The position numbers and the translations under genes were made by a program. Under the pieces are notes generated by a model, which did not search any database, was not told where the DNA came from, and saw only the letters and a program-made list of their open reading frames with translations. 40,659 nucleotides of DNA from positions 1 through 40,659 of the forward strand of contig JADZEA010000076.1 in NCBI GenBank assembly GCA_020850775.1, in the 5' to 3' direction. Positions 7,151 through 40,452 of this stretch are shown one piece after another (within the stretch, counting starts at the first letter, position 1; the number at the start of each line of letters is the position of its first letter). The stretch comes from a bacterium. GTDB taxonomy: Bacteria; CLD3.

Positions 7151-7170
7151 AATTTTCTTAGGATTAAACA

Positions 7171-7206
7171 AAAAGGTAAAATCTAAAAAGATTTTACCTT
7201 TTTTTG
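7171..7206 (+). terminator. Intrinsic terminator after pspA
   Basis: AAAAGGTAAAATCT aaaa AGATTTTACCTTTT then T run. Confidence 0.85.
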
Positions 7207-8633: not shown

Positions 8634-9344
8634 ATGTCAAATATTCTTTCTATTTTTCGTAAGGAGCTAAACTCGTACTTCGATTCTTCCCTTGCTTACA
8701 TTTCTATTTTTTTGTTTTTAATAATTACGGGAATCGGATTTTTTAATTTTAGCTTTTTCATTCAAAAGCAAGCCGATGTCAGGGATTTATTTTTCTTCTG
8801 CAGCGCTGTTTTTGTCGTAACAATTCCTGCAATTACAATGAAAACAATCTCTGAAGAATTAAAAAATGGAACTCTTGAACTACTAACAACTTATCCAATC
8901 CGTGATTTTGAAATAATTGTCGGAAAGTTTTTAGCTTCTTTCATCTTACTTTTAGTAACTATTGCACTAACTTTTGTTTACACTTTTTCAGTTTCAACAC
9001 TTGGAAACCTTGATGAAGGAATTGTGATTGGTGGTTACATCGGTTTAATTTTGATGGGAGCAACGCTAATTTCTTTGGGAATTTACATCTCAAGCGCAAC
9101 TGAAAGTCAGGTTGTTGCTTTAATTATCAGTGTTGCAATTACTTTCTTTTGGGTTTTTCTTGACAACATTTTAGTTTTTATCAGTGGAAATGTTAGAATC
9201 ATTGATTTCCTTGCAATTGATTCGCATTTTGCAAACATTCAACGTGGCGTTGTAGATTCAAGAGATTTAATTTACTACTTTTCATTCACTGGATTATTCT
9301 TGTTTTTAGCAACACGCAAACTTGCAAGCAGAAAATGGAGTTAA
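8634..9344 (+). CDS. gldF: ABC-2 type permease, GldF-like
   Basis: Six-TM ABC-2 character with SEELKNGTLELLTTYPI. Confidence 0.8.
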   Translation: MSNILSIFRKELNSYFDSSLAYISIFLFLIITGIGFFNFSFFIQKQADVRDLFFFCSAVFVVTIPAITMKTISEELKNGTLELLTTYPIRDFEIIVGKFLASFILLLVTIALTFVYTFSVSTLGNLDEGIVIGGYIGLILMGATLISLGIYISSATESQVVALIISVAITFFWVFLDNILVFISGNVRIIDFLAIDSHFANIQRGVVDSRDLIYYFSFTGLFLFLATRKLASRKWS

Positions 9345-9348
9345 AAAA

Positions 9349-10929
9349 ATGACAGACAAAAAAACATCTTTCAAACTAAATTCAAACCTACTTTTATTGG
9401 TGATTGTTGGAATTTTAATCGCAATTAACGTGATTTCCAACTACTTTTTCACAAGAATTGACTTGACGGAAGAGAAAATTTTCACACTTGCTCCAACAAG
9501 TATTGAAACAGTCAAAAACCTTGATGACAAACTTTTCATTAAAGCATACTTTAGTGCCGATATTCCTTCTCCTTTTTCAAACACAAGGCAATACTTACAA
9601 GACCAACTTGATGAGTACAGAGCTTATTCAAACGGAAACCTTGTGTACGAATTTATTTCTGACAGCCTTGACAGAGAAGCACCAAAAGCAGGAATTCAAC
9701 CCGTTGACCTGCGGGTTGTGGAAAACGACCAAATTTCTGTTCGCAGAGTGTACCTTGGTCTTGTCATGAACTACGAGGATAAAAAAGAAGTTATGCCTTT
9801 TATCCAAAGTTCTGAAGGACTTGAGTACGACTTGACAAAAAGAATTTTGAAACTTACAACTGAATCTACAAAAAAAATTGGTTTTCTTACCGGACACGAT
9901 GAAGCCGACGAAAAATCCCTGCAAACCGTTCGTTCTCATTTGCTTGAACAGTACCAAGTTGTCCCTGTTTCAACAGAATTTGGCAAAAAAATTCCACAAG
10001 ACATTGCTGCTTTACTTGTCATTTCGCCTAAAAAAGCACTTTCAGAATGGGACAAGTACGCAATTGACCAATATTTAATTGGTGGTGGAAAAGTCGGTTT
10101 TTATCTAAACCAGGTTGCCGTTGAGCTTTCACAACAACAATCAGAAAATCTAAACCTGAACCTTGACAACTTACTTGCAAGTTATGGAATTAAAGTTAAT
10201 CAAAACCTTGTTCAAGACTTGCAAAACCAACCAATTAACGTCCAGGAAAGACGTGGAATTTTTAACATTAACCGCCAAATTCCTTACCCGTTTTTGCCTT
10301 TAGTCAGAACTTTTGCAAAAGGTGAGGGAATGGTTAAAGACCTTGAAAATGTTTCTTTCTATTTTGCAAGCACGATTGACACAACAGCTGCAAAAGAAAC
10401 TTCGGTTTACAAAGTGCTTGCCTACAGTTCTCCTTATTCAAAAACTGCAAGCGGAGAATACCAGCTTTACCCGCAAGATCCTTCACAAATCAATAAAAAT
10501 GATTACAACCTTGGAAAACAGGCGTTGGCAGTCAGCGTTTCAGGAAAAATTACTTCTGCCTTTGCAAGCGGAAACAGACCTCAGTTTATGCGACCCGATT
10601 CAACTTTTGGTGATGACATTCAACCAACTTTGTTAGAAACCGAAAACGCAAGAGTTTTTGTTGTTGGAGATGGTGATTTTATGCAGGAGAATTTCAAAAA
10701 CCAACCTGACAACATTAATCTTTTCCTGAATTCTGTAGATTGGTTAGCTTCAAGTGAAGGTTTGATTTCAATTCGTTCACGCGAAGTTACGGATAGAAAA
10801 ATTGAAGAAATTACCGACGGAAAAAAAGATTTTATTAAATGGGGAAACAGCATTGGACTTCCTTTGCTTGTTTTAGTGTTTGGGCTTGTCAGGTGGCAAG
10901 TTCGTAAAAATCATAAAGTAGAGGTATAA
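9349..10929 (+). CDS. gldG: GldG-like ABC transporter auxiliary protein
   Basis: ATG 9349 with GGAG upstream; N-terminal TM, SRIDLTEEKIFTLAPTS-like pattern (ISNYFFTRIDLTEEKIFTLAPTS), C-terminal TM. Confidence 0.8.
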   Translation: MTDKKTSFKLNSNLLLLVIVGILIAINVISNYFFTRIDLTEEKIFTLAPTSIETVKNLDDKLFIKAYFSADIPSPFSNTRQYLQDQLDEYRAYSNGNLVYEFISDSLDREAPKAGIQPVDLRVVENDQISVRRVYLGLVMNYEDKKEVMPFIQSSEGLEYDLTKRILKLTTESTKKIGFLTGHDEADEKSLQTVRSHLLEQYQVVPVSTEFGKKIPQDIAALLVISPKKALSEWDKYAIDQYLIGGGKVGFYLNQVAVELSQQQSENLNLNLDNLLASYGIKVNQNLVQDLQNQPINVQERRGIFNINRQIPYPFLPLVRTFAKGEGMVKDLENVSFYFASTIDTTAAKETSVYKVLAYSSPYSKTASGEYQLYPQDPSQINKNDYNLGKQALAVSVSGKITSAFASGNRPQFMRPDSTFGDDIQPTLLETENARVFVVGDGDFMQENFKNQPDNINLFLNSVDWLASSEGLISIRSREVTDRKIEEITDGKKDFIKWGNSIGLPLLVLVFGLVRWQVRKNHKVEV

Positions 10930-11043: not shown

Positions 11044-11976
11044 ATGAAAAAAACAGGACTTTTAGCAGTAGTTTTAGTCGCTCTTGGAATTATTGCTTAT
11101 TTTTCAGTAAAAGGCAGCAACACAAGTTTTAGTTCGGATTTGCCAAAAGATTTTTTTGCAGCCGATACAACAAAAATTACTTCAATTGAGCTAAAATCAA
11201 TCAAAAATGGTGAAATTGCCATTTCAAAAGAAGGCGAATTTTGGAAACTGACAAAACCTGTTGTTTACCAGGCTGACCAAAGTAAGGTTAATGCAATCAT
11301 TAATGAAATTCCAAAAATTTTGATTAACAATCCGGAACAATCAAACAACCCTGAAAAATTTGAAAAATATCAAGTCAGTGATTCAACGGGAACTTTTGTA
11401 AAATTTTTAGCCGGAAACGAAGTTCTCGCAGAATTTATTGTCGGGAAATCAGCTTCTTCAGGAGTTTTTTTGAGGCAGCCAAATAAAAATGCTGTAATAC
11501 TTGCCGAAAGTTTTAATTCCTATCTTTTTACGCAACCTTCTGAACAGTTTAGGGACAGAACAGTTTGTAAACTCAAAGCCGAAGAAATCACAAAATATTT
11601 TGTAAAATCTTTAAAAGGTGAGCTAACAATTGAAAAAGCTGATTCACTTTGGGTAGTTACAGGTAGCGAAGCAAAGGAAAAAACAACTCAGGCAGACGAA
11701 AGTTTAATTGAAACTTGGGGAGCACGTTTTGCAAATCTTTTCGCTTCAAAATTTCACGATGCACAAAGCGATTTTACAAACCCAACACTTTCAGTTAAAC
11801 TAACAACTCCGCAAGGTGAAAAAACTTTCTTAGCAGTTGAAGACAAAGACACAAACTTTTACCAGGTAAAATATTCTGATTCCGAGCAAATCTTTTTGAT
11901 TGCAAAAGGTGTGTTGGATTCTTACAATAAAAGTTACGACGAACTGAAAAAACAAGAACAACCTAAGAAAAAGTAA
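11044..11976 (+). CDS. DUF4340-domain protein
   Basis: Pattern KITSIELKSIKNGEIAISKEGEFWKLTKPVVYQADQSKVNAIINEI; gene position after gldG-like gene. Confidence 0.8.
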   Translation: MKKTGLLAVVLVALGIIAYFSVKGSNTSFSSDLPKDFFAADTTKITSIELKSIKNGEIAISKEGEFWKLTKPVVYQADQSKVNAIINEIPKILINNPEQSNNPEKFEKYQVSDSTGTFVKFLAGNEVLAEFIVGKSASSGVFLRQPNKNAVILAESFNSYLFTQPSEQFRDRTVCKLKAEEITKYFVKSLKGELTIEKADSLWVVTGSEAKEKTTQADESLIETWGARFANLFASKFHDAQSDFTNPTLSVKLTTPQGEKTFLAVEDKDTNFYQVKYSDSEQIFLIAKGVLDSYNKSYDELKKQEQPKKK

Positions 11977-11997
11977 TTTTGCAAGCTCAAACAGTTT

Positions 11998-12049
11998 CAT
12001 TCACTTTGTTACAAAAAAACACTGTCGGGATTTGGAGACCTTAGTTTTG
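11998..12049 (+). pseudogene. Internally deleted remnant of a VOC/glyoxalase gene
   Basis: 11998-12013 matches 35734-35749(-) 15/16 and 12017-12049 matches 35391-35423(-) 32/33; in the intact gene these blocks are 310 bp apart. Confidence 0.75.
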
Positions 12050-12051
12050 TT

Positions 12052-12087
12052 GTGTGAGTGTCTTACTTCTTGGTGAGGCTCTCACAC
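12052..12087. repeat. Long intergenic hairpin (GTGTGAG...CTCACAC) between convergent genes
   Basis: Outer 7-bp stem plus inner CTTAC/GTGAG stem; resembles the hairpin at 20274-20308. Confidence 0.6.
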
Positions 12088-12168
12088 TGAAACTTTCGCG
12101 GAATCCACGCTTCTTAGCGGGGTTTACGCTAAAAAAATCCTGTCCTTGAAACCCAAAAAATAAAAAAC

Positions 12169-15100
12169 TTAGTTTTCCCACGTTACAACGTAGAAAAATT
12201 TCCCACTGCTTACAGCGTTTGTGTCTGTGTAATTTGTGTTTGAAGTTTCATCAATTGGAACTAAACCCGTTACTTCTGTAATTGGAACTAAACTTCTGTA
12301 AATTTTATAGTTAGTTGCTCCAACTACTGCTGACCAGTTTAAAACTGCAGCGTTCCCGTTCTTTTGGATTTTTAAATCGGAAACAGGTGGCAAAACGCTT
12401 AAACTCACTGTAACGTAATCCGTTTTTAGTAAACTATCACTTTCCGTTCCGTTGGAAACAACAAGTTTTACACTGAAAGTTCCCGCTTGCGTGTAGCTGA
12501 AAACAGGATTTTGTGTCGTTGCGTCGGTTGTTCCGTCGTTCTGAAAATCCCAAAACCAACTTGTAACCTGATTTGGAAAACCAACCGAAAAATCCGTAAA
12601 AGTTACGTTCAAAGGTGCTTCTCCGCTCACAACACTTGCTTGAAAATTAGCTTCCAAAGGAACTGAAAGATTGTTAAAAGCAACCAAAGGTAAAACTTGT
12701 AAACTACCATTTTCCACAAGTGTAAGGTTTCTGTTTGAAATGGAATCTTCCCACACAAAAACTCCATTTTTTAAGTGCAAAAACTTAAACTCAACATTTT
12801 TTGGTTCACAAGCAGCAAAAACCAAAGTGTCAGCAAAAATGTTTGCAGAAACCTGAGTTAGCTCAATTCCGCTCCAACCTGAAAAAGTTCCCGCAACAAA
12901 AACGCTTTCAATGGAATCGGCTACAACAAGAACCTGAAAGTAAACCTGTGTCGTTTGTGCTGTAACTGTCGGAACTACGTTATCAAAAAATACAGTAGCC
13001 AAAGTTGTGTCTGAGTTTGCAAAATCCAAGTTCAAAGTTCTGTTTCCAATTTGGTCTTCCCAGTTCACAACCGAACTTCCGTCTGTAAAACAGAAAAATT
13101 TGTACTCTTGATTTAAAGTGCTTCCGGCAAGGATTTGGTAATTCCCTGAAAAAATTTTGTCGTTGTTTGCGTCAAAAATCTTAGTCCCGTTCCAACCCGA
13201 AAAAGTCCCTGCAACAAAAACACTGTCAATCGTCTGTAAACAGTAGTTAGTCAGGTCAACGCTGAAAGTTACGTTTTTACTTTGCGAAAGCACGTCGTTA
13301 AAAGTTACTGTTGGCAAAGTTTGGCTCGTGTTCGTGTCGTCAAGCGTAAAGTTTCTGTTGCCAATCGTTTCCCAAACCGTTTCAGTTCCGTTGCTGTAAG
13401 TAAATTTATAATTTCTTGTTTTCACGCTGCAACCCGGAAAAGCAAAAACACCACTGTAAACGTTTCCGCTTCCTGAAACTAAAGGAATTGCCGTTGGATT
13501 CCAGTTCGTAAAATCACCTGTAAGGTAAACATTTGTAACTACTCCGCTTACAAAAGAAAAATCCACGCTGAAAGTTACGTTCACGTTTTGAACGGTAACG
13601 GTTGTTGGTTCTGTGTTGTTGAAGTAAACAGTTGCCAAAGTTTGGTTCGTTTGCAAAGTGTCAATCGTTAAGTTTCTGTTTGGAACGTCGTTTTCCCAAA
13701 CAAAATTTGTGCTTCCGTTTGCGTAGTAAACAAATTTAAATTCCTGATTTAAAGTGTCTCCAACTGCGAAAGTGTGAGTTCCAGTGTAAATTTTGTCGTT
13801 GTTTGTGTCCGAAAGTTTCAAAGGGTTTAAAGCCCAGTTCGTAAAACTTCCGGCAACAAAAACGCTGTCAATTGTTTCCGAACAAAAAGCATTCAGGTTA
13901 ACGTTAAAAGTTACATTTTCAGGTTGTAAAATCCCGTTTTGAGAAACTACCGTGATGTTTTTTGTTTCAAAATCCGAAAGTGTTCCGTCTGAAACCGTAA
14001 GTTTTACTGCGTAAGTTCCAACGTTTGTGAAAGTGTGTGAAGTGATTGAAGTGATGTCGTCGGTTGTTCCGTTACTGTCAAAATCCCAAAGGTAACTTGT
14101 AATTGGATTTGTTCCCTGTGTGGAAGTGCTTGTAAAATTAACTGTCAGAGGAGAAAATCCACTCAAAACACTTGCCGTAAAATCTGAGTTTGGTGGAGTT
14201 GGTGGTAAAACTAAGTTGTTAAAAGTTACAGTTGCAAGGTTTTGTGTTGGTAAAGAATCGTTTAAAACCAAAGTTCTGTTTGCGATTTGGTCTTCCCAAA
14301 AAACGTTCGTTCCGTCAGTGTACGTGAACTTGTAGAGGTAACTTTCGTTGCTGCAAGCGGGAAAAACGTAGCTTCCGCTGTAAGTTGTTCCGTTGACCAA
14401 AGTTAGCGGAACTGCTGAAGTGTTCCAGTTTACAAAATTTCCCGTTACTGAAACACTTGTAAAAGGAGCTTGAACAACAGCAAGGTCAACTTGAAAATTT
14501 ACAGTAACTTGTTGAGTTGTAAAATTTGAGTAAACGTCGTTAAAAAATACTGTTGACAAAGTTTGAGTTGAGTTTGTGTCATTGATTGTCAGGTTCCTGT
14601 TTGCGATTTGGTCTTCCCAGGTTGTTGTTCCGTTGCTCGTGTAAACGAACTTGTACTGTTGGTTTTCGCTTGTTCCTGCGGGAAAAGTGTAAGAACCTGT
14701 CCAAATTTTGTCGTTGTTCGGGTCTGAAAGCGAAACCGCCTGAGAACCTGTTGACCAGTTTGAAAAAGTTCCCGTAGCTTTGACTTCTGAAACTGTGTTT
14801 GTGAAAGTGCAGGAAGCGTTCAGGTCAAGGCTAAAAGTTACTGTAACACTTTGGTCAATTCCTGCAAGAGTTACGTTTACAAAATCATTTTTAGTTTCTG
14901 TAACGGTTGAAACTCCATCAAAAATTGTTAGTTTGACGCTTTTTAAACCTTGTGTTGTGTACGTGTAAGAAGGATTTTGTCCTGTTGCGTCAGTTGTTCC
15001 GTTGTTGTCAAAATCCCAGTTCCAGCTTTGAATCGGATTGTTTCCGGCAGTTGAGAGGCTTAAAAAATTTACAGTTAAGGGCAAGTTTCCGCTTGTCGGG

Positions 15101-18100
15101 TTTGCGGAAAAATCGGCAGTGAGCGAAGTTGAGTTTCCGTCCGGAAAGCCGTCGTTGTTTGCGTCAACTGTAAAAATTACGGAGTTGTTGATTGTTGGTA
15201 AGTTTGTTCCTGTTGTGTTTGAAGGAGCAGAATCGGAACTAAGTTGTGTTTGAGTTGCAAGCGAAGCAACAAGGCGAATCGTAGCTCCTGATTTTACGAT
15301 TCCTTCGCCGAGTTCGTAAAGTGCGTTCCAGGGAATTGCGATTTCTGAGCCGGTCAAAGTTCCCGTCAGGAAAGTTCGTGAAAAAACAGAACTAACCTGA
15401 GTTGCGTTGGTTAAAGAATTAATTTTCCAAAAATCACCGTTAGAACCGGCGTACGAACCGAACTGAAAATCAACTTTCATTTGGGAAGCAGAGTTAAAAA
15501 CTGCGTTTCTGTCCCAAACATTGATTGTTGAAAGGTTTGTTTGCCCGTTTGCACCATTTGGGTCAGTGTCAAGGTAAAGAAGCCAGGAAAGGTTTGAGGC
15601 GACTTGTCCGTCAATTCCCAAGTAAAGGTAAAGAGAATCCCAATCCATAAAAATCGTTTCAATTTCGTTACTTGCTCCTAAAAATGAATCGTTGTTCGGG
15701 TCGTCAACTAAAATTGTTGAATTGTCCCATTCGTTAGCGTCAAAAAAACCGTCAATTGTTTTGCTAATGTTTTCAAGTTTCCAAACTCCGTAACCGTCAA
15801 AGAAAAAATACCTTTCGTTACCGTTTCCGAGCGTGTTTTGGAAAGAGTTAGCTTCAGCCAAAAGTCTGACGTTGTTGAAATCAGCATTTTTGAAGTTGCC
15901 AGCAGTTGTTTGGTCAAGCTGAATCCTGATAATTTGTGAGTTGCCGGTGTTCAAAATCGTTGAGTTTGCAAGCGAAAAATCAGGAACGTTGTCAAAATTT
16001 GTGTCAAAGCCAATGTTTGCAAGGCTTGTTTGAGAGAAATTCATCGTGTCATCGAAACGCAAAATCAAAATTCCTGTTTGAGCAAAAAAATCAATGTTTG
16101 AGACTAAAGGTTTGTTCACAACAGTTGAAGCCAAAGCGTCAAGTTCAGGAGAAGTCAAACCGTTTGGTTGAGCGTAACCGCCGTAAAGCAGAAAATCAAA
16201 AGTTCCGTTTCCACTGATTTCATCGCCCTTGACGAGTGTTGAAGTAAACTCTGCAGTGTGAGAAGCGCCGCCGCTTCCGACGACACAGGCAACAGTTGCG
16301 TTTGAACCTGTGTTTCTTTGTCCAAAGTAAGCACTTGTTGGAGCAAAAACTCTTTGAATGCCTTGTGGGTTCCAGGTTAGCGAGAGCAAATCAGGAGTAA
16401 ACCCGGATTTAATGTAAGTTGTTCCGGGAGTTGTGTAGCGAACTTTTAAGTAAGGTTGATTTTCTTCAAGCCTGATTCTTTTGGTCATTCCGTCTTTGAA
16501 CATTGAAATTTGAACGACTGAACCTGAACCGTTGTCAACAGTCCAGCCGTAAGATTCGTTAATCCAGTTTGCGTTTCCGTTGACAAAGACGTCTGAAAGC
16601 CCTGCAACGTGGTTAGCGTCGTTGTAATCGCCGGTTGTTCCTTCCCAGTAGGCGTTGTCGTTTCCGATTAGTGAGTAAGTGTAGTCTGTTCCTTTTGCAA
16701 AGAGCCAGCAAAGTCTTCCGCCTGTTCCTTCAAAAACTGCGAAAATTCTGTCGTTGTAAATTATCATTTCAACGGCTCCGTCAAGGTCAATGTCAGAAGT
16801 GTAAGCAGCAGTTGAATTTGTGTACCAGTTTGCAGCCCATTTTGCTGCTTCGGCGTAAACGTTTGTGTTTTTGATGTGTGCGGAGTAGTTGTGGATCCAG
16901 CCTGAAGTTTGTCCGCCAAGTCCTTCGTGCCAGGCAGTTTCGTGAATGTTTGTCATAAAAGTTAGCCAACCAGCTTCAGAAATTGAATTTGAGGCACTGC
17001 TTAAAAGATTGTTGTAAGTGTTCCACCAAACGTTTCCGTAGTTCCAGCCTGGATTGTGAAAATCAGACGGACTTTGCGTTCCTGCCCAATCTGTGTACCA
17101 GGCGTTGTTGTTTCCGCCGTAACCGTTGAAACCGCCGATTAAATCGTAAGTTCCGTTGTTTAAAGTAATTCCGTTTCCGTTAAATTTTCCTGAAGAGATT
17201 GCACTTGAAAGTTTCCAGGCTCCTTGCCAGGAGGAATTTGCTGAAAGCTGTTGGTTTAACCACAAAAAATTTTCAACTCCAGAGCTAACGGCTTGTCCGC
17301 TGACTTCTGCGAGAACTTCCCAATCAGTTCCATAAACTGCAATTCCATTTTCTCCAGTGCTTAAAATTGTATTCCAGGCGGCACCTGCGTTGTAGTTTAC
17401 GTTTCCGGTGAAAGTGTTGTCAATCGGAATCACACGCAAATTTATTCCGTTTCCATTGTTCATCCAATGAATTTTGTGGTTGTCAGCTCCTGCAAGGTGG
17501 ATGTAATCGTCAAGGATAACCGCTTCAATTCCATTTTGCGTCCAGTTGTCGCCGAGCCAGGTATCGGAAATTCCGGCGTCAGGGTAAGTTCCGCCTGAGA
17601 GCCAAACTCTTTCGGGAATCCAGGCGATTGAAGGGTTGTAGTTGTACACAAAATTTATTAAATCGTGCTGAGTTTTTACGGATTTGTTGTTTAGGTTATC
17701 GGGAAGAAAAGGCATAATGTGTTGTCCAAGTGCTGAAGAGACGATTTCTGCCCAACCTTGCTGTCCACCTTGAGCCAACCAGTCATTAAAAGTTGGGTCG
17801 TGCCATTCTGCAGCAGAAATTAAAGTTCCGCTCAGGTGGTAGTTTGCGGGAATGCTGTAGTTTTGTGAAATTGCGAGGAGTTCGTCAAAACCGTTTCCGG
17901 AAGAGTTTGGGAAAGTTGTTCCGCCGTCTGTTCCGCGAAAAACGTCTGTGTAAGTTAGCCCTTGGTTTCCGTGTAAAACAAAAGCACAGTTTCCTGTTTG
18001 TGTTGAGATTTGGTTTGAGCCTTTGAGAGTGTCGATTGTTTTTCCTGCGATTTCGGTAGTTACGAGGTAAGAAATCGGGAAAGTTTCGTTGTTAAAGATT

Positions 18101-18600
18101 TCATTCGGGTAGGTTGCGAGTTCATTTTTCAGGTTTTGTGAGTGTGGGATTACGAGTTCCACGAAGTTAAATTCCCGTGTAAGTTGAGTTTGGATTTTTT
18201 CTTTAAGGGAATTTCGTAAGGTTTTATTTTTGCCTGAAAACTCAATGAGTTCATCGTAATAAAAATTTTCATTTTTTACGAAGTTCTTTTTGTCTTTTGA
18301 GTAAGAAAGGTAAATTTTGATTTTTGTGTTGTTAGAGTTAAAAAGTTCGGTTTTGTGGTCAAGGCTTTGTAAAAGGTAAATTCCAACACGAATTTTCAAG
18401 TAGTTTGGTTCAAGGTCGGCGTAGAGAGTTAGTAAGTCAGCTGAAGGGTTTTTGATAATTTCTTCTGTTTCAACGGCAAAATCAGCTTTTTTAAAATGGA
18501 TATTTTTGTAAGATTTTGGGTTCCCAAACTCAATTTTATTTTGAGCAAGCAGAAGAAACGGGAACAAAAGAAAAATAAGTTTCAATAAATTTTTAGCCAT
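12169..18600 (-). CDS. Secreted multidomain GH57-like glycosidase with six starch-binding-like modules, three PKD domains and a C-terminal FnIII domain
   Basis: Start at 18600 gives signal peptide MAKNLLKLIFLLFPFLLLAQ and AAAGGG upstream; HGNQ and WIPERVW motifs; repeated FxNW...YKFxYxxG...WEDQIxNRxL modules; PKD pattern WDFDxNGTTD. Confidence 0.75.
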   Translation of the reverse strand: MAKNLLKLIFLLFPFLLLAQNKIEFGNPKSYKNIHFKKADFAVETEEIIKNPSADLLTLYADLEPNYLKIRVGIYLLQSLDHKTELFNSNNTKIKIYLSYSKDKKNFVKNENFYYDELIEFSGKNKTLRNSLKEKIQTQLTREFNFVELVIPHSQNLKNELATYPNEIFNNETFPISYLVTTEIAGKTIDTLKGSNQISTQTGNCAFVLHGNQGLTYTDVFRGTDGGTTFPNSSGNGFDELLAISQNYSIPANYHLSGTLISAAEWHDPTFNDWLAQGGQQGWAEIVSSALGQHIMPFLPDNLNNKSVKTQHDLINFVYNYNPSIAWIPERVWLSGGTYPDAGISDTWLGDNWTQNGIEAVILDDYIHLAGADNHKIHWMNNGNGINLRVIPIDNTFTGNVNYNAGAAWNTILSTGENGIAVYGTDWEVLAEVSGQAVSSGVENFLWLNQQLSANSSWQGAWKLSSAISSGKFNGNGITLNNGTYDLIGGFNGYGGNNNAWYTDWAGTQSPSDFHNPGWNYGNVWWNTYNNLLSSASNSISEAGWLTFMTNIHETAWHEGLGGQTSGWIHNYSAHIKNTNVYAEAAKWAANWYTNSTAAYTSDIDLDGAVEMIIYNDRIFAVFEGTGGRLCWLFAKGTDYTYSLIGNDNAYWEGTTGDYNDANHVAGLSDVFVNGNANWINESYGWTVDNGSGSVVQISMFKDGMTKRIRLEENQPYLKVRYTTPGTTYIKSGFTPDLLSLTWNPQGIQRVFAPTSAYFGQRNTGSNATVACVVGSGGASHTAEFTSTLVKGDEISGNGTFDFLLYGGYAQPNGLTSPELDALASTVVNKPLVSNIDFFAQTGILILRFDDTMNFSQTSLANIGFDTNFDNVPDFSLANSTILNTGNSQIIRIQLDQTTAGNFKNADFNNVRLLAEANSFQNTLGNGNERYFFFDGYGVWKLENISKTIDGFFDANEWDNSTILVDDPNNDSFLGASNEIETIFMDWDSLYLYLGIDGQVASNLSWLLYLDTDPNGANGQTNLSTINVWDRNAVFNSASQMKVDFQFGSYAGSNGDFWKINSLTNATQVSSVFSRTFLTGTLTGSEIAIPWNALYELGEGIVKSGATIRLVASLATQTQLSSDSAPSNTTGTNLPTINNSVIFTVDANNDGFPDGNSTSLTADFSANPTSGNLPLTVNFLSLSTAGNNPIQSWNWDFDNNGTTDATGQNPSYTYTTQGLKSVKLTIFDGVSTVTETKNDFVNVTLAGIDQSVTVTFSLDLNASCTFTNTVSEVKATGTFSNWSTGSQAVSLSDPNNDKIWTGSYTFPAGTSENQQYKFVYTSNGTTTWEDQIANRNLTINDTNSTQTLSTVFFNDVYSNFTTQQVTVNFQVDLAVVQAPFTSVSVTGNFVNWNTSAVPLTLVNGTTYSGSYVFPACSNESYLYKFTYTDGTNVFWEDQIANRTLVLNDSLPTQNLATVTFNNLVLPPTPPNSDFTASVLSGFSPLTVNFTSTSTQGTNPITSYLWDFDSNGTTDDITSITSHTFTNVGTYAVKLTVSDGTLSDFETKNITVVSQNGILQPENVTFNVNLNAFCSETIDSVFVAGSFTNWALNPLKLSDTNNDKIYTGTHTFAVGDTLNQEFKFVYYANGSTNFVWENDVPNRNLTIDTLQTNQTLATVYFNNTEPTTVTVQNVNVTFSVDFSFVSGVVTNVYLTGDFTNWNPTAIPLVSGSGNVYSGVFAFPGCSVKTRNYKFTYSNGTETVWETIGNRNFTLDDTNTSQTLPTVTFNDVLSQSKNVTFSVDLTNYCLQTIDSVFVAGTFSGWNGTKIFDANNDKIFSGNYQILAGSTLNQEYKFFCFTDGSSVVNWEDQIGNRTLNLDFANSDTTLATVFFDNVVPTVTAQTTQVYFQVLVVADSIESVFVAGTFSGWSGIELTQVSANIFADTLVFAACEPKNVEFKFLHLKNGVFVWEDSISNRNLTLVENGSLQVLPLVAFNNLSVPLEANFQASVVSGEAPLNVTFTDFSVGFPNQVTSWFWDFQNDGTTDATTQNPVFSYTQAGTFSVKLVVSNGTESDSLLKTDYVTVSLSVLPPVSDLKIQKNGNAAVLNWSAVVGATNYKIYRSLVPITEVTGLVPIDETSNTNYTDTNAVSSGKFFYVVTWEN
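12655..14860 (-). repeat. Six tandem starch/glycogen-binding-like modules (about 100 aa each) split by a PKD domain
   Basis: Modules approximately 14535-14859, 14212-14534, 13615-13940, 13290-13607, 12980-13288, 12660-12975; boundaries estimated by eye. Confidence 0.75.
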
Positions 18601-18625
18601 AAAAATGCCCTTTAAGTTAGGTTTT

Positions 18626-18656
18626 AGAAAGTAAATAAAAAGGGTTGCCAAGTCAA
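18626..18656 (-). promoter_or_regulatory. Putative promoter for the GH57-like gene (TTGACT, 17 nt, TACTTTCT)
   Basis: Read on the - strand upstream of 18600. Confidence 0.4.
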
Positions 18657-18796: not shown

Positions 18797-20263
18797 ATGA
18801 AAAAGTTTTGTTTACTAACTTTATTTTTGGGTGCTTTTGCAAGTATTTCCTTAGCTTTACCAACTGTTGACGGAGATACTTCTGAGCCTGATTACGAAAT
18901 TATTGCCACTTACACGAGTGGAAACAATGGTTTTGGAAGTTCAAACAACATTCGTTCAATCAAAATTGCGAGAAACTCAGCAACTGATGATTTTTACATC
19001 GGCATTCCCTGCGATTTGGTGAGTAACGATAATGTTTTGCTTTTTATGGATGCTTCCGGTTACGATGGAAGAGACAAAGGTTTAGCTGTTGGACAAACAG
19101 GAGAAACTGGTGTTTTTGGCACAGGAGGTTTGGACGGCACGTTTATGGATTTTGAAGTGGATTACGCCTTTTCTTTTAACAAAGGTGGTTCAGGCACTGA
19201 TTTTTTCATGGACGCAATGCGTTACGGTGAAGGGACGCCTTTTATCAAAAGTTCGTTTTTTAACAACGGTTCAGGAAAGAGTTGCAACCAAAGTGGCACT
19301 CCTTCAACGATTCCAAGTTCAGGCATTACAGATTTTTCCGACGCAAACACAATGACAATCGCATACAACAACGGAGGTGGAATTGACCAGGGAATTGAGT
19401 TAATGCTGCACATTCCTTCTTCAGGTTCAACGGCTCTTCCGGGCGTTGTAAAAACTCACTACGCAAAATTTTTTGCAGTGATTGTCAGCGGTGGCGGATT
19501 TTTTTCTGACGAAATGCTTCCTCACCACAACCGTCAGTCAGGAAACCCCGGATACGATGTAAATTTTGCTTCAACAACTTTCAACAATGGTGCTGAAGGA
19601 GATTTTTTTACCGCTCCTGACGTTCCTTTGCCTGTAAACCTGAATTCTTTTAATGCTAAAAACAGCAACAACAAAATCGTTCTTGAATGGATTGCTGAAT
19701 CCGAAATCAACAACAAAGGTTTTATCGTTCAAAGGAAAACCAAAAACGAAACAAACTTTACTCAAATCGCTTCTTACTTAGATTCTCCGGAACTTCTTGG
19801 ACGAGGGAACTCTCCTTTTTCAAAAACTTATACTTTTGTTGACAGAGAGGATTTGATTTTGGGTGAAACTTATGAATACTTGCTTACTGACGTTGATTTT
19901 GTAGGAAACAGGATTGACCACAAAGATTTGATTGCAACAGTTCGCTACGAGCCAACAATTAATGAAAATGAAGTGAGAATTTCAAAATTTATTTTAAAAG
20001 GAAACTTCCCGAATCCTTTCAACCCAACAACAACAATTCAGTTTGAATCATTAGGCAAAACAGATTACTCACTTTCAATTTTTAACACTTCAGGTCAGCT
20101 TGTCAGAAATCTTGTTTCTGAAAAACCTGCCGAAATTGGAACTAATGAAATTGTTTGGGACGGAAAAGACGACAACGGTTCTTTGGTTTCTTCGGGAATT
20201 TATTTTTACCAGCTTAAAGGTGGAAATTTTTCCGAAACTAAAAAAATGATGCTTTTAAAATAG
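18797..20263 (+). CDS. Secreted protein with T9SS type A C-terminal sorting domain
   Basis: Signal peptide; C-terminus NFPNPFNPTTTIQF...GIYFYQLKGGNFSETKKMMLLK. Confidence 0.88.
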   Translation: MKKFCLLTLFLGAFASISLALPTVDGDTSEPDYEIIATYTSGNNGFGSSNNIRSIKIARNSATDDFYIGIPCDLVSNDNVLLFMDASGYDGRDKGLAVGQTGETGVFGTGGLDGTFMDFEVDYAFSFNKGGSGTDFFMDAMRYGEGTPFIKSSFFNNGSGKSCNQSGTPSTIPSSGITDFSDANTMTIAYNNGGGIDQGIELMLHIPSSGSTALPGVVKTHYAKFFAVIVSGGGFFSDEMLPHHNRQSGNPGYDVNFASTTFNNGAEGDFFTAPDVPLPVNLNSFNAKNSNNKIVLEWIAESEINNKGFIVQRKTKNETNFTQIASYLDSPELLGRGNSPFSKTYTFVDREDLILGETYEYLLTDVDFVGNRIDHKDLIATVRYEPTINENEVRISKFILKGNFPNPFNPTTTIQFESLGKTDYSLSIFNTSGQLVRNLVSEKPAEIGTNEIVWDGKDDNGSLVSSGIYFYQLKGGNFSETKKMMLLK

Positions 20264-20273
20264 AAAAACTTTA

Positions 20274-20312
20274 AGTGAGAGTTTTACTTCTAAAAGTCAA
20301 ACTCTCACCTTG
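20274..20312. terminator. Intergenic hairpin between convergent genes
   Basis: GTGAGAGTTT-T-ACTT ctaa AAGT-C-AAACTCTCAC. Confidence 0.65.
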
Positions 20313-35395: not shown

Positions 35396-35755
35396 CTAAG
35401 GTCGCCAAATCCCGACAGTGTTTCCTTCCGTGTCTTCAAAATGCGCAAAGTATCCGTGTTCGTCGGAAATTTTTGTTTCAGGAAATACCATTTTTCCACC
35501 GTTAGCTTCAATTTTTGCAAGCATTTCGCCAATGTTTTCAACAGAAATGTAAGGAATGACACTGTTTCCGTTTTTTACTTCAGTTCCTTCTTCAATTTGT
35601 GCGAAGCCTCCGCCAATTCCATCTTTTTCAGCATTGAACATCGCGTAACAATCGCCCATTGGTTGAAATTTCCAGGCAAAAATTTCCGTGTAAAATTTTG
35701 TTGCCCTTGCTAAGTTTTTTGTGTAAAACTCAATGTAACAAAGTGAGTGGTTCAT
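35396..35755 (-). CDS. VOC family (glyoxalase/bleomycin resistance-like) protein
   Basis: MNHSLCYIEFYTKNLARATKFYTEIFAWKF...FAHFEDTEGNTVGIWRP. Confidence 0.9.
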   Translation of the reverse strand: MNHSLCYIEFYTKNLARATKFYTEIFAWKFQPMGDCYAMFNAEKDGIGGGFAQIEEGTEVKNGNSVIPYISVENIGEMLAKIEANGGKMVFPETKISDEHGYFAHFEDTEGNTVGIWRP

Positions 35756-38900: not shown

Positions 38901-40452
38901 AACCTGGTCTCAAAAATCAATGAATTTGAACAATGCGTGGGGAAAAATTCAAATCAAACTCGCTTTTAATTCTGTTGACGGCGGTTTCAACTTTGGAAAA
39001 GGTTGGTTCGTTGACAACCTGATTGTCGCAAACTCTCTGCCAACCCCAACAATTAACGTCTCAAAAACAAACTTAAAGCAAGTTTTAGCTCAAAGCACAA
39101 CCAAAACAAAAGTTGTAACTCTTGCAAACACCGGGCAAACTTCACTAACTTACTCAATCGTCGCAAACTCAATAAATTTTCCGCAGGCAAGTTCTGAAAA
39201 CGAATTTGCAGACCTTTTAGCTAAGCAGGAAAAGTATCAAAACCAACTTGAAACAGAAAAAGACCGAACAAAATCTTTTGAAGTGCGAAACAGACTAATT
39301 GCAACTCAAAAACAAATCCAAACTCTTAAAAACGGAGCAAAAATTTCTGAAACTTTGAACGTTCCCTGGTTAAACTTAAACTTAACCAATGGTTCAATTT
39401 TAAGTGGAGACTTTGTGTTTTTGAACGTTCAGTTTGTTCCGGGAACGATGCTGGAAGGTTTTTACTACGCAACAATCACAATTACTTCAAACGATCCGAA
39501 CAAACCAACAACAAACATTGACGTCGTGATGAATGTTGACAACACGCCGATGGAAATTGGTTTTATCCCGTCAGTTTTACTTTACGAAGACACAAGCGAC
39601 CAACTTGCACTCGGCGATTACGTCGTTGAAGGAAATCCAAGCCAAATTTTTTGGACAGCACAAATTTCTGACCCGAACATCGCTGTCGGAATTGTTCCAA
39701 TCTGGAATTTTTTGAACATTAATCCGGCACCAAATTATTTTACGGCTTCACAAAAGGAACTGATTTTAACAGCTACTCACAGTCTTGGAGGAGATTTCTG
39801 GACAGACACAATTTCCGTTGTGATTTTGCCGGTAAACGACCCGCCAACAGCTTTTAACATCGTTTCTCCTGCAAACTTTGCAACGATAAATTCTCCGCCA
39901 CAAAACAAAGTTACTTTTACCTGGCAAAAATCTTTTGATTTGGAAACTCAGGAACCTTACTACTCGATTGAGTTTGCACAAACTTCAAACTTCGCAAACA
40001 GCACTCTGACGGTTGTCGGACCTGATAGTTTTGTAACTGTAACTTTCAATTCAAGCGGTTGGAACTACTGGCGTGTTTTTGTAACTGACGGAACTGTAAC
40101 GCTTCCCTGTGCGAATTTTTATCGTGCCGTGAACGTCATTTTGTCCGGAGTAGAGGACGAAAACAACTTGCCAAAGGCTTACAAACTTTCGCAAAACTAT
40201 CCGAACCCGTTTAATCCAACGACAACGATTGAGTTTGCGATTTTGGAAAGTGGTAAAACAGAACTTGAAATTTTTAACGTTTTAGGACAGAAAATCAGGA
40301 CGCTTGTTTCTGAAAAACTATTAAGCGGAAGCTACAAAGTGAAGTGGAACGGAACAGACGAAAACGGAAAACAAGTTTCGTCAGGAATTTATTTTTACAA
40401 GCTAAAAAGTGGAAACTTTTCCGAAACGAAAAAAATGGTTTTGTTGAAGTAA
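35923..40452 (+). CDS. S8 subtilisin-like serine peptidase with T9SS type A sorting domain
   Basis: IAVFDTGIDATHPDL (Asp), AHGTCTSGIAAAVG (His), GGTSSACPLAAGIAALV (Ser); C-terminus NYPNPFNPTTTIEF...GIYFYKLKSGNFSETKKMVLLK. Confidence 0.93.
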   Translation: MKIFTAFLFLLLPLLASAKEFYYYKNQKIFIHESNKILVELKESNKNFIENLISTSPFLQDFNQETVFSKTQDNRFKTLCILEFKEGSSETTKQDFVNFLKNQQEVYSVFSGYQNKNEGMFVFGEFLIQFKPFVSRNQVNNFLQNNNLTLVDDSEPLPNYFVVKIPQNTEANFFDLVNSVNASELVNFSEPNFILQDLLDSDPLFPTQWGMHNTGQFNGIVDADVDALEVWENVTTGDPNIVIAVFDTGIDATHPDLAGNVVTGFNTINNTTNPTYAPENEAHGTCTSGIAAAVGDNNEGIHGTASTCKIMQIKIFPFVVSQTVTGINWSWQNGADVMSNSWGGSSPVTSIESAFQQAKTQGREGKGCVILASSGNNDNPDPHYPSAYTSTISIGSTSMCEERKSPVSCDGENFWGASYGDQLNFVVPGVTIQTTDIVGVEGYSTGNYSPDFGGTSSACPLAAGIAALVVSVDTMLTSDEVQTILETTCEKVGNYTYNQQKTNGTWDFEMGYGRANAYEAVAKACKPKNFELIDPINASTYVIGTIMNFNWEKSAFANKLDTLRYEFQISPNTNFSTISFTETLTDTVFQWQALLSPQDYFWRVIAKSLKNGSQVVSTGANSITPYFTFQLIQPTGPYLIYNSFSVNDQNEDNDGLADFYETVNLNVLFENVGIQNTINTTATLTENSPYVTVVNGTANLPPVTFGTILNTPGIFTISINGNVPDKEKVKMTLSVTDGTNTWTSYFYVVLHSPVFVYDSFSLVETTGNGDTFLQPNETGNLTVLLKNIGSANAQNVNLVVTSLGFSLTIQNQNATIGTIGANPSVSASSLIPVTATQNANYGETVPIGIVLTIGNNFSQTLEGTAEIGNRSYLLDIFNDNSNEWQFTNTFTGLKWAIDSTASQIGTQTAYKSFPFSLNYNNGTNFISGTVANSGEAISPVLDISTHVNPVLRFWSLHDVEGNNSKDQRWVKISNDGFATILDSVQLSNLDPQQTWSQKSMNLNNAWGKIQIKLAFNSVDGGFNFGKGWFVDNLIVANSLPTPTINVSKTNLKQVLAQSTTKTKVVTLANTGQTSLTYSIVANSINFPQASSENEFADLLAKQEKYQNQLETEKDRTKSFEVRNRLIATQKQIQTLKNGAKISETLNVPWLNLNLTNGSILSGDFVFLNVQFVPGTMLEGFYYATITITSNDPNKPTTNIDVVMNVDNTPMEIGFIPSVLLYEDTSDQLALGDYVVEGNPSQIFWTAQISDPNIAVGIVPIWNFLNINPAPNYFTASQKELILTATHSLGGDFWTDTISVVILPVNDPPTAFNIVSPANFATINSPPQNKVTFTWQKSFDLETQEPYYSIEFAQTSNFANSTLTVVGPDSFVTVTFNSSGWNYWRVFVTDGTVTLPCANFYRAVNVILSGVEDENNLPKAYKLSQNYPNPFNPTTTIEFAILESGKTELEIFNVLGQKIRTLVSEKLLSGSYKVKWNGTDENGKQVSSGIYFYKLKSGNFSETKKMVLLK

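Follow-up and report, generated by a model that had tools for sequence, protein, structure and literature searches.

A 52-base intergenic stretch carrying both ends of a VOC gene is probably what is left of a collapsed second copy

Background

How did short pieces of both ends of a single gene come to lie side by side between two unrelated genes? We asked this of positions 11998-12049 in a window of 40,659 nucleotides, the whole stretch of DNA analysed here, which is contig 76 of a 3.09-Mb draft genome in 265 contigs. The window contains one intact VOC/glyoxalase gene (35396-35755, reverse strand), encoding 119 aa with a match to Pfam PF00903 (Glyoxalase domain, E 2e-9) and 55% identical to its relative in G001, a genome of the same family. 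The 52-base stretch sits in a 192-bp interval between a DUF4340 gene directly upstream (11044-11976, forward strand), which itself follows a GldG-like gene (9322-10929), and a convergent gene for a 2160-aa GH57/PKD protein (12169-18651, reverse strand) that closes the intergenic region. The interval contains the scar; its remainder is not unique sequence and is largely a copy of a dispersed repeat. The original prediction, made from the sequence of the window, held that a once-coding second VOC copy had decayed here by internal deletion.

Results

Both ends of the VOC gene are indeed present in the 52-base stretch. The longer block, at 12017-12049 on the forward strand, is identical to the 3' end of the VOC gene at 32 of 33 positions, as originally proposed, with the correction that it spans a single nucleotide, the last 8 sense codons, the stop codon and 5 nt beyond it, rather than 9 codons plus stop. 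When the VOC gene and its flanks were compared with the whole 3.1-Mb genome, the only matches were the gene itself and 12017-12049 (33 nt, 97%, E 1.4e-8), and self-comparison of the window placed the same pair among its strongest matches (E 4e-9). A 19-nt probe taken from the block and scanned across the whole genome with up to 3 mismatches allowed returned two exact sites, the relic and the VOC gene, so that an origin of the block as a dispersed repeat, the possibility that the original prediction had raised against itself, is ruled out. Nor is the block a module of the hairpin repeat described below, since it is absent from the other ~75 sites of that repeat.

The shorter block, at 11998-12013 (forward strand), agrees with VOC codons 3-7 at 15 of 16 positions, with 13 consecutive identities, exactly as first reported, and within the window TCACTTTGTTACA is found in this block and in the VOC gene and in no third place. 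A match this short raises the possibility that VOC sequence is confined to the 33-nt block, introduced as a piece of the 3' end, and that the 5' similarity is coincidental. Alignment against shuffled controls, the check proposed with the original prediction, speaks to this directly: the score of the 5' block against the VOC region was equalled by 0.25% of 2000 dinucleotide shuffles (11977-12016) and, in 0.5% of trials, by 40-nt segments drawn at random from the window (p ~0.0025-0.005). Chance becomes even less likely because the match falls where the gene begins, has the expected strand and precedes the 33-nt block, and we regard coincidence as improbable. By genome search, probe scan and shuffles, the homology of the relic to the intact VOC gene exceeds chance.

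The two ends are collinear and on the same strand, with the first two codons absent, the middle missing and the reading frame lost; the blocks lie 3 bp apart in the relic vs. 310 bp in the intact gene, and direct comparison showed the original description of the spacing and frame to be right. Because both gene ends occur in the right order and on the right strand with the middle gone, a shortened copy is the best fit, and we consider the stretch to be probably the collapsed remnant of a second VOC copy, an ordinary deletion relic, itself most likely functionless.

Whether that copy was ever expressed is a separate matter. The blocks together are 96% identical to the VOC gene, and the two mismatches are both synonymous; since 23% of the possible changes in these codons are synonymous, two out of two would arise by chance in about 5% of cases, which hints weakly at a coding past. 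The relic has no start codon, no ribosome site and no similarity to the VOC upstream or leader sequence, with the match halting abruptly at codon 3. Since nothing upstream of codon 3 resembles the VOC leader, expression of a second gene is weakly supported, and it is equally possible that the VOC copy was already truncated when it arrived. The original reading of a second copy decayed by internal deletion therefore holds as the most economical account, while its claim that this copy was once coding is retained only as a weak suggestion.

As to how the relic formed, we infer that an extra VOC copy, or just the portion from codon 3 to slightly past the stop, would have landed between the DUF4340 gene and its convergent GH57-like neighbour, that its inside would then have been deleted between short direct repeats or microhomologies by replication slippage or end-joining to leave 16 + 33 bp, and that the 3' edge of the relic would have been joined to a REP/BIME-like hairpin mosaic repeat, probably via a common TTTTG. 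Modelled as one internal deletion in the VOC gene as it stands today, the scar leaves at least 4 edits over. A model with two deletions (14 bp and 293 bp, each at a microhomology of a few bases) accounted for the full 52 bases, the two known substitutions being the sole differences; under this path the AAA spacer at the deletion joint (12014-12016, forward strand) would be the retained part of an A-run inside the VOC gene, with zero inserted bases. The two-deletion path is plausible, and it falls short of proof because the model has more freedom and a good fit is easier to reach.

The relic stops where the hairpin repeat begins, a neighbour that the original account of the surroundings had overlooked. 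This copy of a dispersed mosaic repeat, at ~12048-12159 on the forward strand, consists of a module C (GTGAG..CTCAC, 12054-12085), a module A (12098-12130) and a degenerate module B, of which C and A fold at -21 and -16 kcal/mol, respectively; the whole interval between the DUF4340 and GH57 genes folds more stably than its shuffles (z -3.4), and a search of Rfam found no RNA family match at the scar. The junction reads AGTTTTGTTGT, in which AGTTTTG also corresponds to the VOC stop region, and other copies of the repeat carry a variable linker ahead of unit C, such as AAGTTTGTTGT or GTTTTAGGTT. Because TTTTG, the last 5 nt of the relic, also fits the start of the adjoining repeat, these bases are not clean evidence of VOC origin; their double fit is what would be expected of a joint formed at a short shared sequence.

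Such a joint also bears on a different history, in which break repair or template switching near the hairpin repeat copied two short VOC stretches into place and a full second gene never existed. The strong hairpin at the junction, the TTTTG shared by relic and repeat, the sharp edges of the match (codon 3 at one side, TTTTG at the other) and flanks devoid of residual similarity all fit templated copying of this kind. However, both pieces share one strand, keep the order they have in the VOC gene and represent its opposite ends, an arrangement that deletion accounts for directly, and the sampled flanks of other repeat sites contained no comparable gene-end patch, leaving this history rather unlikely. 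We likewise treat as a long shot the broader idea that hairpin mosaic repeats of this lineage may contribute, at their edges, to the capture of short fragments from nearby genes during repair or copying, with the VOC relic as a footprint. Comparing 1.4 kb of flanking sequence from other repeat sites with the genome yielded no clear gene-end fragment, and capture by the repeat therefore lacks a second example in this sample; the flanks matched additional dispersed repeats between genes, terminators, and tails that secreted-protein genes have in common.

Across the genome, the hairpin repeat is related to ~75 matched sites, many of them tandem mosaics at gene 3' ends; set beside one another for comparison, the copies show the hairpin units C (GTGAGTGTCTCACTTCTTGGTGAGGCTCTCAC), a near-inverse of C, A (GCGGAATCCACGCTTCTTAGCGGGGTTTACGCT), a near-inverse of A and an A-rich B. 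Most of the clusters examined are intergenic, typically at a gene 3' end and often between convergent genes; the family, with sites such as L059:4106-5165, L060:2197-3060 and L061:2183-3158, often lies near contig ends. The C-type hairpin also occurs in G001, and the repeat core had no copy in GTDB 220 contigs or in viral contigs. The hairpin beside the relic may have a role at the RNA or DNA level where the two convergent genes end.

Comparison with known systems points to a resemblance of the neighbouring repeat to REP/BIME elements (PMC2817692, PMC3733652): it shares short hairpin units of alternating orientation, arranged in tandem mosaics in intergenic regions at gene 3' ends, with many copies at ~75 matched sites. 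The hairpins in the window differ in that no GTAG or CGTC tag is visible by eye at the hairpin foot. The repeat is also without one associated feature, the Y1 (RAYT-type) transposase: PF01797 had no match in the genome, with the same search positive in control genomes, E. coli among them, and a RAYT-driven REP was rejected. VOC genes commonly occur as integron cassette genes, and the dispersed hairpins here are similar to attC arrays; however, the repeat units lie ~90-170 bp apart with no genes between them. Integron integrase searches gave below-cut-off matches only in this genome, the same as in all control genomes, and with no integrase above the cut-off an integron cassette array is unsupported.

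We compared the locus with one same-family genome, G001, in which the same GldG-DUF4340 order is followed, after a gap of 40 bp, by a convergent gene that is unrelated. The original prediction had suggested looking in relatives for a VOC gene beside the DUF4340 gene; G001, the sole same-family genome compared, has none, and in this one relative neither a VOC intermediate nor an intact gene occupies the relic site. Its VOC gene sits elsewhere, and no neighbour within the 16 kb examined matches genes of the window. The GldG-like protein had no relative in GTDB 220. The two copies in the window are inverted and face each other over 23 kb on one contig, as they would if a 23-kb segment had been inverted via staggered breaks that duplicated the VOC gene in opposite orientation, one copy then decaying. 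GC skew shows no sign of an inverted block, however, and G001 offers no usable synteny at either end; we hold an inversion breakpoint to be very doubtful.

Discussion

Read as the probable remnant of a second VOC copy, the stretch resembles bacterial pseudogene relics shortened by deletion between short direct repeats, with ordered gene ends, an inside lost out of frame and an intact paralogue elsewhere, and differs from them in also lacking the start codon and all sequence before it. It offers a clean small case of a gene reduced by decay to a scar of 52 bp, and brings to light an abundant family of hairpin repeats in a bacterial lineage that has been poorly sampled; the VOC relic alone alters no general view.

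Several other sequences were noticed along the way. A second dispersed repeat, GC-richer and attC-like in look (TAACAAAGCGTGCACCTGACGTGTGGGATTCTGCGGC...), occurs at L072:491-781, L102:965-1186 and L103:1838-1907, and a third short dispersed intergenic sequence (AAGGTGTAAAATTGAATAAATTTTCAAACAGGAGGC...) of 53-62 nt has at least 4 copies (L097:1196-1257, L098:1127-1188, L104:864-916 and L066:1607-1760). Within the window, 20186-20248 and 40375-40437 form a 63-nt match at 89% between the 3' ends of two type IX secretion C-terminal-tail genes, and shared tails of such genes recur at repeat edges. The window also has strong intergenic inverted repeats of 34-47 nt at 1625-1671, 7170-7203 and 20275-20308, which are possible terminators.
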